A stretch of DNA of 45,299 bases from Methanobrevibacter sp. (lineage in GTDB: Archaea; Methanobacteriota; Methanobacteria; Methanobacteriales; Methanobacteriaceae), in contig NZ_JAFQQZ010000051.1 of the NCBI RefSeq assembly GCF_017410345.1, positions 1-45,299 on the forward strand. Direction: 5' to 3'. Of this stretch, positions 21,688 to 24,240 are shown in pieces. The position numbers were made by a program, and so were the translations under genes. The notes under the pieces are model-generated. The model saw nothing but the letters and a program-made list of their open reading frames with translations, made no database searches and was not told the origin of the DNA. How positions within the stretch are numbered: the stretch's first letter is position 1; the number at the start of each line of letters is the position of its first letter.

Positions 21688-21953
21688 CTCGACCAATTTT
21701 TTCTTTTCTAATTTTTAATAAAACTTTTATTTTCTCGTCTTTCATTTATTAAATTCCTTATTTTATCTGTTTTTTTCTATTTTTTTCTAATTTAAATAAT
21801 AAAATATTTATTATAAAGATAATATAAATTAAAACATAAGATATTTAATTTAATTATCTTATTCTTTAAAATAGGTTATAATTAACTGAATTAACTTATT
21901 AGACTTATTGGAATTATTAAATAATTTAAATTATTTCTTTTTGGAGGATTTTG

Positions 21954-23102
21954 ATGAATAAAAGTGATTTGAAAAGAGACCATTATATGTTGAAAGGTCC
22001 CCTTGCCAAGCAAGGTTATGACTGGTGGTGGCATTCCTTAACCGCTTACAATAAGGAAACAGGTGAACCAAGACCATTCTTCATTGAATACTTTGTGTGT
22101 AACCCTGACTTGGCTGAAGATGAGCCTACCTTAGGTCAAGACCCTAAGAACATTGAAGCAGGCAAAAGACCTTCCTACTGCATGTTGAAAGTGGGAGCAT
22201 GGGGAAAAGAACCTAAACAGATCCATAATTACTATTCCATGAAGGATTTCTCATGTCCTGATGATAAGCTGGACATTAAGGTTGGAGAATACAGCTTGAC
22301 TGAAACCCATATGACTGGATACTGTAAGGTTACTGAAGAGGAAGCCCGCGAACATCCGGAATATATGTGTGATGCAGGAGAAATGAAATGGGACTTGGAT
22401 ATTGACAAGCAAATCACTTTTAATGTAGGATATGGTGCAAACAGTTTCTTTAGAAAATTGAATGCATTTGAAATGTTCTGGCACGCTGAAGGAATAAAGA
22501 CCCAATACAGCGGAACCATTGAAATGGATGGCGTTGAGTATGAGGTCATTCCTGAAAAGTCCTTCGGATATGCTGACAAGAATTGGGGTGGAGACTTTAC
22601 AAGCCCTTGGCTATGGATATCCTCCTGTAATCTGACAAGTTTGATTACCGGCAAGAAACTTAATAATTCTGCTTTTGAAGCTGGTGGTGGAAAGCCTAAG
22701 GCATTCGGTATTTCCCTTCCTCGTAAATTATTGATAGGTTTCTATTATGAAGGAAAGATGTATGAATACAACTTTGCAAGATTCTGGAATAATGTAAGAG
22801 TCAAATTCGGTTTCAAAGAAGGAGAAGACGTAAACGAATGGTTCATCAACTGCAGCAATTGGAACAGCAAGCTTGAACTCAAATTATACTGCAAACGTGA
22901 TGAGATGCTCCTTTTCAATTATGAAGCACCTACCGGTAAAAAGTTACACACCCGTCTTTGGAATGGTGGAAACGGTTACGGTGAAATCAAGTTGATGAAG
23001 AAGGACGGAACCCTTATTGACCATGTGAAAATAGAAAATGCAGGTTGTGAATACGGAGAATATGATGATGACAGAACCCATAATGTTATAGATGACAGAT
23101 AA
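21954..23102 (+). CDS. Tocopherol-cyclase-like protein
   Basis: The 382-residue soluble protein matches the layout of the tocopherol cyclase family (Pfam Tocopherol_cycl, two lipocalin-like beta-barrel halves). The key block is FGYADKNWGGDFTSPWLWISSC, corresponding to GYAEKNWG..FP..W.W in plant and cyanobacterial cyclases. An N-terminal WWWHSL...RPFFIEYF also fits. In plants the enzyme closes the chromanol ring of vitamin E. Methanogens make no tocopherol, so the substrate is unknown; family members of unknown role occur in anaerobic bacteria. ATG 21954 has GGAGGA at ideal spacing; the TTG at 21951 is not needed. A phytol-kinase-like gene follows after 155 nt. Confidence 0.7.
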   Translation: MNKSDLKRDHYMLKGPLAKQGYDWWWHSLTAYNKETGEPRPFFIEYFVCNPDLAEDEPTLGQDPKNIEAGKRPSYCMLKVGAWGKEPKQIHNYYSMKDFSCPDDKLDIKVGEYSLTETHMTGYCKVTEEEAREHPEYMCDAGEMKWDLDIDKQITFNVGYGANSFFRKLNAFEMFWHAEGIKTQYSGTIEMDGVEYEVIPEKSFGYADKNWGGDFTSPWLWISSCNLTSLITGKKLNNSAFEAGGGKPKAFGISLPRKLLIGFYYEGKMYEYNFARFWNNVRVKFGFKEGEDVNEWFINCSNWNSKLELKLYCKRDEMLLFNYEAPTGKKLHTRLWNGGNGYGEIKLMKKDGTLIDHVKIENAGCEYGEYDDDRTHNVIDDR

Positions 23103-23257
23103 GTTATCTATAATATTATTTTTTTTATTCATCAGCTTCTTAATTAATTTAACTTTCATTATTATTTAATAATTTGATTTAATTATTATTCTAAAATTTT
23201 ATTATTATTTTATTAATTTGATTTTAATTATTATTTGGAATTTAAAGAGTAGATATT

Positions 23258-23947
23258 ATGTTATGGACAGACATGATTGCTTTAATCATAGTTTATCTCT
23301 ATGTTATTGTAGTCTTTATATTAGCGGAAAAGGTTTTAAAGAGTAAACCTGAAGTATCTCGTAAGTTTTTACACATTATGGTAGGTAATATGATCTTTGC
23401 CATGCCTTTCTTCTCAGATCCATGGATCATGCTCATATTCATTACCTTGCCTGTTACAGTTGCACTATTCTTCCTTACAGAATATTCCCCTATTACAATC
23501 AAAAACAGTGTAACTGAATCTGGCCATGCATTAGGATTGTTCTTCTATGCATTGATTTGGTCAATTTTGCTCTTGATTTATCCAATATTGATTGATCCTA
23601 ACTTACTCTGGATTGTAGCGATGGCTATTGTTCCTTTAGTATACGGTGATGGATTTGCAGCTCTTGTTGGAGGAAAATGGGGTAATATCAAATATCATGT
23701 ATTTGGTGGAGAAAAGACCCTTATGGGTTCCCTTGCAATGCTTGCTGTAACAGCAGTGCTTTCCGTATTCGTATGGGTGTTCTACAGTGCAATGGGATAC
23801 ACTCTTCCAGAGCTTAACTTCTGGTACATATTGATCATTTCCGCACTTGCAACAATCTGTGAAGCTATCAGTTATGGTGGTATCGACAACCTTACCGTAC
23901 CTTCCGTAACTTCAATCTTGTACTTCCTTGTTGCTACAGTGCTCTAG
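23258..23947 (+). CDS. Phytol/dolichol kinase-like membrane protein (CTP-transferase family)
   Basis: The 229-residue protein has six to seven membrane segments and the motifs of the Dgk1/Sec59/VTE5 family: SRKFLHIMVGNMIF near residue 35, YGDGFAALVGGKWG, GGEKTLMGSLAM, and a final EAISYGGIDNLTVP. These enzymes phosphorylate prenyl alcohols or diacylglycerol with CTP at the membrane. In plants VTE5 makes phytyl phosphate for tocopherol. In an archaeon a geranylgeraniol- or polyprenol-type substrate is plausible. It follows the tocopherol-cyclase-like gene on the same strand, and a perfect intrinsic terminator overlaps its stop. No strong ribosome site is seen. Confidence 0.8.
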   Translation: MLWTDMIALIIVYLYVIVVFILAEKVLKSKPEVSRKFLHIMVGNMIFAMPFFSDPWIMLIFITLPVTVALFFLTEYSPITIKNSVTESGHALGLFFYALIWSILLLIYPILIDPNLLWIVAMAIVPLVYGDGFAALVGGKWGNIKYHVFGGEKTLMGSLAMLAVTAVLSVFVWVFYSAMGYTLPELNFWYILIISALATICEAISYGGIDNLTVPSVTSILYFLVATVL

Positions 23948-23974
23948 TTATCACATATTGTGATAACTTTTTTA
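23946..23974 (+). terminator. Intrinsic terminator after the phytol-kinase-like gene
   Basis: AGTTATCACA (23946-23955), loop TAT, TGTGATAACT (23959-23968) form a perfect 10-bp stem, followed by TTTTTTATTTT. The first arm overlaps the stop codon. Confidence 0.75.
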
Positions 23975-24240
23975 TTTTCTTAATTTTTTATCTATTTTTT
24001 GAATCGTTTTTTCATTTTGTTTTTATATATTCAAATTATATTTTATTTTTTCTGATTTTTCCTACTTAAATAACTTAAATTTATTTTTAATTTTACTGAT
24101 TTATTTTCATTTTAAACAAATATAATCAAGTTTCTTATCATAATTTTAATTTTTATTCCATTTTTAATTATTTAAGCTATTTTAAGTTGATTTTTTTAGT
24201 TTTAATAATTTTTAGATTAAAATAACTTTTTGTTAATAAA

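Follow-up and report, generated by a model that had tools for sequence, protein, structure and literature searches.

What do a tocopherol-cyclase-like gene and a prenol-kinase-like gene, lying side by side, do in a methanogen? The pair was analysed in a Methanobrevibacter sp. sequence of 45,299 nucleotides (the window), which makes up all of contig C51; the genome measures 1.84 Mb and is 95.75% complete. The nearest relatives of the window are Methanobrevibacter genomes, one of which is labelled M. olleyae. An earlier note, made from the sequence alone, had suggested, as one option, that the two genes work on a prenyl alcohol. The explanation that we prefer, and to which we give about even chances, is that of a two-gene cassette for handling isoprenoids. 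The kinase would belong to a prenol salvage route together with a thymidylate-kinase-like (TMK-like) protein, and the cyclase would be a carbocation enzyme working on the same pool.

Organization of the gene pair

Gene 1 has an ATG start codon, and gene 2 follows in the same direction after a gap of 155 nt (21954-23102 and 23258-23947), as the earlier note had stated. The GYADKNWGG...WLWISSC block that it had read in gene 1 lies at residues 205-225, and the RKFLH, YGDGFAALVGGKWG and EKTLMGS motifs are all present in gene 2. The terminator placed after the second gene was recovered as a stem-loop with a T-run and a folding energy of -10.5 kcal/mol (z -5.6). The features are as follows.

21943..21947, + strand: probable ribosome-binding site of gene 1 (GGAGG), read directly from the sequence
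21954..23102, + strand: gene 1, tocopherol-cyclase-family protein (PF14249) of 382 aa with an AttH/CrtC-type two-domain lipocalin-like fold; from open reading frame, profile and fold
22566..22628, + strand: gene 1 core block GYADKNWGGDFTSPWLWISSC, residues 205-225, with D208 as proposed acid and W219/W221 as proposed cation-stabilising pair; invariant in 47 sequences, equivalents of CrtC D268/W283/W285
23258..23947, + strand: gene 2, VTE5/FOLK/PolK-type prenol kinase-like membrane protein of 229 aa; from motif, fold and published annotation
23360..23374, + strand: gene 2 RKFLH, the R-K-x-x-H clamp, residues 35-39; R35 and H39 invariant, K36 in 15/16
23642..23683, + strand: gene 2 motif YGDGFAALVGGKWG, residues 129-142; Y129, G130, D131 and G132 invariant
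23711..23731, + strand: gene 2 EKTLMGS motif, residues 152-158; most relatives read K-[ST]-x-E-G-S
23946..23978, + strand: intrinsic-terminator-like stem-loop with T-run at the 3' end of the unit; 10 pairs, from folding energy

Gene 1: fold and catalytic core

A Pfam profile search matched the gene 1 protein to Tocopherol_cycl (PF14249) at 51.3 bits (E 1.2e-13, residues 81-368), above the curated cut-off of 26.6 bits, and the family assignment of the earlier note is therefore upheld. The structure prediction that it had suggested gave an AlphaFold2 model (pLDDT 88.6) with an AttH/CrtC-type fold. Matches to AttH (2ich, E 8.9e-10), the pericyclase Fsa2, kievitone hydratase and 25-phosphosteroid lyase (25-PSL) were all assigned a probability of 1.00, and there was no further fold family at E 0.001 or better. 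When a family profile of 47 relatives was compared with the PDB, two weak matches were obtained, kievitone hydratase 7a0q and 25-PSL 9fzn, both centred on the block at residues 205-225.

Within this block D208, W211, W219 and W221 are invariant in 47/47 aligned sequences, and the D208/W219-x-W221 arrangement is also kept in the divergent cyclases of genomes G028, G063 and G068. D208 and W219-x-W221 are arranged as D268 and W283/W285 of CrtC, an equivalence drawn by motif and not by superposition. CrtC hydrates farnesol and, weakly, geranylgeraniol. D268 is its proposed proton donor and, like W110, W283 and W285, is essential, D268, W283 and W285 having been tested by mutation (PMC12402844). 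The predicted fold and the catalytic core thus point to carbocation chemistry on isoprenoid chains, whether addition, ring closure or elimination. The cyclase is under strong purifying selection (dN/dS 0.01-0.04).

In G023 a frameshift at about residue 353 interrupts the cyclase (L164 6055-7260) and leaves the remainder in another frame, reflecting either real decay or a sequencing error.

Gene 2: a prenol-kinase-type protein

No Pfam model matched the gene 2 protein or its 15 aligned relatives, and no NCBIfam model matched it or two relatives, so the search against CTP_transf_1 (PF01148) suggested by the earlier note fails at the sequence level in all 16 members. A PF01148 match was not treated as a requirement for prenol kinases. 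Within the window's own genome the only PF01148 match is weak and falls on another gene, read as CarS from its sequence.

Other evidence is more informative. In the alignment R35 and H39 of the clamp are invariant and K36 is present in 15 of 16 sequences, with the same R-K-x-x-H spacing as the R29/K30/H33 clamp of the assayed Plasmodium prenol kinase PfPolK (PMC10849223). The best PDB match of the model (pLDDT 83) is the CDP-DAG synthetase CdsA (4q2e), with probability 1.00 but a weak score (E 0.04, TM 0.42). A gene annotated as K18678 (phytol kinase) lies in the neighbourhood of a K11781 gene in M. smithii (PMC10939349), in agreement with the M. smithii-type kinase locus seen here, where a CofH-type gene is nearby. 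On motif, predicted fold and published annotation, gene 2 is best described as a prenol-kinase-type protein; these, and not Pfam, support the prenol-kinase-type membrane protein of the earlier note. The enzyme probably phosphorylates isoprenoid alcohols. Purifying selection on the kinase is likewise strong (dN/dS 0.04-0.08).

In part of the window's genus E156 of the K-[ST]-x-E-G-S motif is replaced by Met or Ala (7/24 sequences of alignment A1, the window included), possibly with changed nucleotide use or a weakened kinase. A VTE6-family DUF92 protein (TIGR00297) is also encoded in the window's genome (L208, G000:C52, 3970-4601), and profile comparison found no relation between it and gene 2.

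Conservation of the pair

The survey comprised 151 genomes of Methanobacteriales, mostly metagenome-assembled, and counts were tabulated by hand. The kinase was searched for in this order and in one genome of another order. The cyclase was found in 84 and the kinase in 102 of the 151 genomes. Among Methanobrevibacter-type genomes in which both genes were placed, cyclase and kinase are adjacent on one strand in 70/72, bearing out the conserved neighbourhood expected by the earlier note. In the window's genus (g1) 52 to 187 nt separate the two genes; in g9, the larger genus, the junctions mostly measure -4 to +5 nt. The pair stands in several flanking contexts. Because one-strand adjacency is so consistent and dN/dS lies at 0.01-0.08, the pair is taken to be more than a chance arrangement.

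Each gene also occurs without the other. The cyclase is kept without the kinase in Methanosphaera, G011 and Firmicutes, and hence cannot strictly need it. The kinase is kept without an intact cyclase in G044 and G070. In G070 (L158) a short cyclase remnant (residues 144-179) directly precedes an intact kinase, and a similar site in G044 has no cyclase left. Relative to the kinase, the cyclase is dispensable. Several Methanosphaera genomes (L088, L089, L167, L168, L177) carry the cyclase followed by a gene of 376-394 aa and a 344-aa ABC-type ATPase gene, with the kinase absent there.

Plasmid searches with both proteins gave no match. Tocopherol cyclase and dolichol kinase annotations are listed for M. 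ruminantium in a published table (PMC7772410); no functional work on either was found in the literature.

Bacterial origin of the cyclase

Beyond the methanogens, the cyclase has its closest relatives mostly among Firmicutes, whose proteins are 54-65% identical to it. At the Firmicutes loci neither a conserved neighbour nor a kinase was found in the flanks examined, and no kinase adjoins the cyclases of Methanosphaera and Methanomassiliicoccaceae. A 220-aa open reading frame next to the Methanomassiliicoccaceae cyclase was considered as a kinase candidate and rejected, since its sequence resembles a peptidyl-prolyl isomerase and it gives no match to the kinase profile. Nothing useful on the Firmicutes cyclase came from the literature.

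In the cyclase tree Methanobacteriaceae fall into two separate clades, A (the window, most Methanobrevibacter and Methanosphaera) and B (G028, G063 and G068), and a single Methanobacteriaceae clade was rejected (AU p 0.0025). Methanobacteriaceae acquired this Firmicutes-type gene on at least two occasions. The clade-B cyclase of G028 lies directly before the kinase, which is followed by the TMK-like gene. In G030 two contig ends share an identical stretch that, read from the sequences, would join cyclase and kinase likewise. Cyclase-kinase adjacency is therefore seen with two separately acquired cyclases.

The TMK-like partner of the kinase

The association of the kinase with a TMK-like gene is older than that with the cyclase: the kinase is followed by a TMK-like gene in genomes that we take to be of Methanothermobacter, Methanobacterium and M. 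smithii type, these labels being our own. A UbiA prenyltransferase gene is often found near the two genes in Methanothermobacter-type and Methanobacterium-type genomes; its product passes the cut-off of PRK12884 (general archaeal prenyltransferase) and falls below that of DGGGP synthase. Of the 151 genomes, 99 carry kinase and TMK-like gene together, 46 carry neither and 6 are discordant, the discordant ones being 68-91% complete. Against the dTMP kinase equivalog TIGR00041 (cut-off 83.25) the TMK-like protein scores 55-60 bits, below the cut-off, and the other TMK of the window's genome passes with 161.5 bits. The TMK-like protein lacks the DR and YQ residues of that other TMK. The paralogue in the window's genome is located at L180 (G000:C10) 121-717, unlinked to the cassette.

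In G110 the kinase and TMK-like gene are succeeded by a gene (L149 7912-8775) with a weak match to PAP2-like phosphatases, short of the Pfam cut-off, which suggests a prenyl phosphate cycle there.

Transfer of the cassette

The TMK-like tree keeps the window's genus together as a single clade (99/97). The kinase tree splits that genus, and its monophyly was rejected (AU p 1.6e-5); g9 without G065 is also split (p 1e-5), and the kinases paired with clade-A cyclases in both genera form one clade (100/99). The M. smithii-type site consists of a cofH-type gene, the kinase and the TMK-like gene. At the native site of cassette-bearing g9 genomes the cofH-type gene and the TMK-like gene are present, the kinase is cleanly missing and the cassette lies elsewhere. 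Within the window's genus several cassette genomes have only the TMK-like gene left of the G028-type site (cyclase-kinase-TMK). Since the kinase tree splits the genera and the native site is without a kinase, the native kinase is, as far as trees and gene order tell, displaced by a transferred kinase; the cyclase either travelled with it or was retained alongside it. An ancient duplication with later loss would be a less simple account.

Comparison with known systems

Any connection with vitamin E finds no support. A search for HPPD (TIGR01263) gave no match at E<=1 in the window's genome, and there is accordingly no tocopherol head group for a cyclase to act upon; nor does a kinase adjoin the cyclase in Firmicutes, Methanosphaera or Methanomassiliicoccaceae. 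A vitamin E role of the pair was rejected on these grounds. Gene 1 resembles the tocopherol cyclase VTE1 in its PF14249 match, the shared 205-225 block and the AttH/CrtC-type fold, but its sequence neighbours are uncharacterised Firmicutes proteins and its host lacks HPPD.

CrtC and kievitone hydratase (7a0q) share with gene 1 the fold and a catalytic Asp with paired Trp, and the known enzymes act on isoprenoid isopropylidene ends, although they have no significant sequence similarity to gene 1. To our knowledge, the host methanogen makes neither carotenoids nor prenylated flavonoids. The kinases VTE5, FOLK and PfPolK (K18678) resemble gene 2 in the RKxxH clamp and, as its weak fold match would suggest, in being helical CTP-transferase-type membrane proteins. 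Gene 2 differs from them in having no Pfam match and a TMK-like protein as its usual partner, and its host genome also encodes the VTE6-family DUF92 protein.

Geranylgeraniol (GGOH) kinase and geranylgeranyl phosphate (GGP) kinase activities are described for Sulfolobus acidocaldarius (Ohnuma 1996). Two separate kinases there lead from GGOH to GGPP in an archaeon, as is proposed by analogy for the kinase and TMK-like pair. In the literature consulted, no gene is named for these activities, and a review discusses the activities without genes. The kinase and TMK-like gene are candidate genes for them.

Proposed function and alternatives

For the salvage cassette that we prefer, the substrates, reaction direction, phosphate donor and order of steps are those that we infer. 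Gene 2 would be an integral-membrane kinase, probably CTP-dependent, converting a prenol to a prenyl monophosphate; geranylgeraniol would be its likeliest substrate in an archaeon. The unlinked TMK-like P-loop paralogue (G000:C10:121-717) would carry out the second phosphorylation, and the resulting prenyl diphosphate could serve UbiA-type prenyltransferases as substrate. Gene 1, from Firmicutes, would be a cofactor-independent carbocation enzyme in which Asp208 may protonate (or, in reverse, deprotonate) a trisubstituted isoprenoid double bond and Trp219/Trp221 may stabilise the tertiary cation. Acting on the pool of prenols or prenyl phosphates shared with the kinase, it would bring about hydration, ring closure or elimination. 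The analysis lends support to the earlier suggestion that both genes may work on a prenyl alcohol. Several observations weigh against the explanation: either gene can occur without an intact partner (cyclase alone in Methanosphaera, G011 and Firmicutes, kinase in G044 and G070), the kinase has no Pfam match and a weak fold score (E 0.04, TM 0.42), the UbiA neighbour fails the DGGGP synthase cut-off, and E156 is Met or Ala in 7/24 A1 sequences, the window included.

The main rival, which we consider unlikely, is dehydration by kinase plus lyase, gene 2 phosphorylating an isoprenoid alcohol and gene 1 eliminating the phosphate to leave an alkene. This logic is documented for the 25-hydroxysteroid kinase and 25-PSL, which act on the sterol side chain (PMC8449060, PMC11061730), and it would explain directly why a kinase adjoins gene 1. 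Gene 1 has few significant fold matches, and the 25-PSL structures 9fzn, 9g2i and 9g4c belong to them; in the profile 25-PSL aligns with the gene 1 core at G-x-x-D-[RK]-x-W-G. However, the gene 1 fold scores better for AttH, Fsa2 and kievitone hydratase than for 25-PSL, sequence comparison with 25-PSL gives a non-significant match (E 0.95), and cyclase-bearing Methanosphaera and Firmicutes are without this kinase. The Sterolibacterium denitrificans system itself resembles the pair in using a kinase and then a lyase of the gene 1 fold, with a common D-[RK]-x-W-G core, on an isoprenoid side chain; it differs in that no candidate lyase gene lies near its kinase. The kinase of the methanogen, for its part, is probably a membrane protein of CdsA type.

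Gene 1 may instead be a hydratase/dehydratase for dietary or host terpenoids, serving gut detoxification or scavenging, with the kinase activating the resulting prenol, so that the link would be the gut habitat and not membrane lipids. Kievitone hydratase and CrtC do such chemistry on prenyl groups and terpene alcohols, rumen and gut samples are the source of the methanogen carriers and of many in Firmicutes, and a cyclase without kinase in Methanosphaera would be explained. We regard this as improbable, since Paenibacillus, Clostridium lacusfryxellense and Fusibacter, also carriers, are not typical gut organisms and a cyclase-kinase adjacency that arose twice is not explained by it alone.

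That an AttH-type lipid-binding protein landed before the kinase by chance and was carried along is very unlikely: loss or decay of the cyclase beside a retained kinase in G044 and G070 and its lack of a conserved partner in bacteria would fit, but the invariant Asp/Trp core, the low cyclase dN/dS, the tight g9 junctions in several flanking contexts and the second, independent cyclase-kinase-TMK arrangement all speak against it.

Implications

With the salvage cassette as the preferred explanation, a further step can be envisaged, although we think it somewhat unlikely. Gut methanogens may have added to a salvage route a bacterial carbocation enzyme with the 25-phosphosteroid-lyase/CrtC fold, yielding a modified isoprenoid (hydrated, cyclised or a dephosphorylated alkene) undescribed in methanogens. 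Literature searches on hydroxyarchaeol in Methanobrevibacter gave nothing useful.

The analysis provides concrete candidate genes for archaeal isoprenoid salvage, which has been known biochemically since 1996. One bacterial enzyme family is present in methanogens through at least two entries, beside the same type of kinase both times, and the native kinase appears to have been displaced. If the chemistry were confirmed, the dominant methane producers of ruminants would modify a pool of isoprenoids, perhaps dietary phytol or membrane lipids, in a manner of which we found no record.
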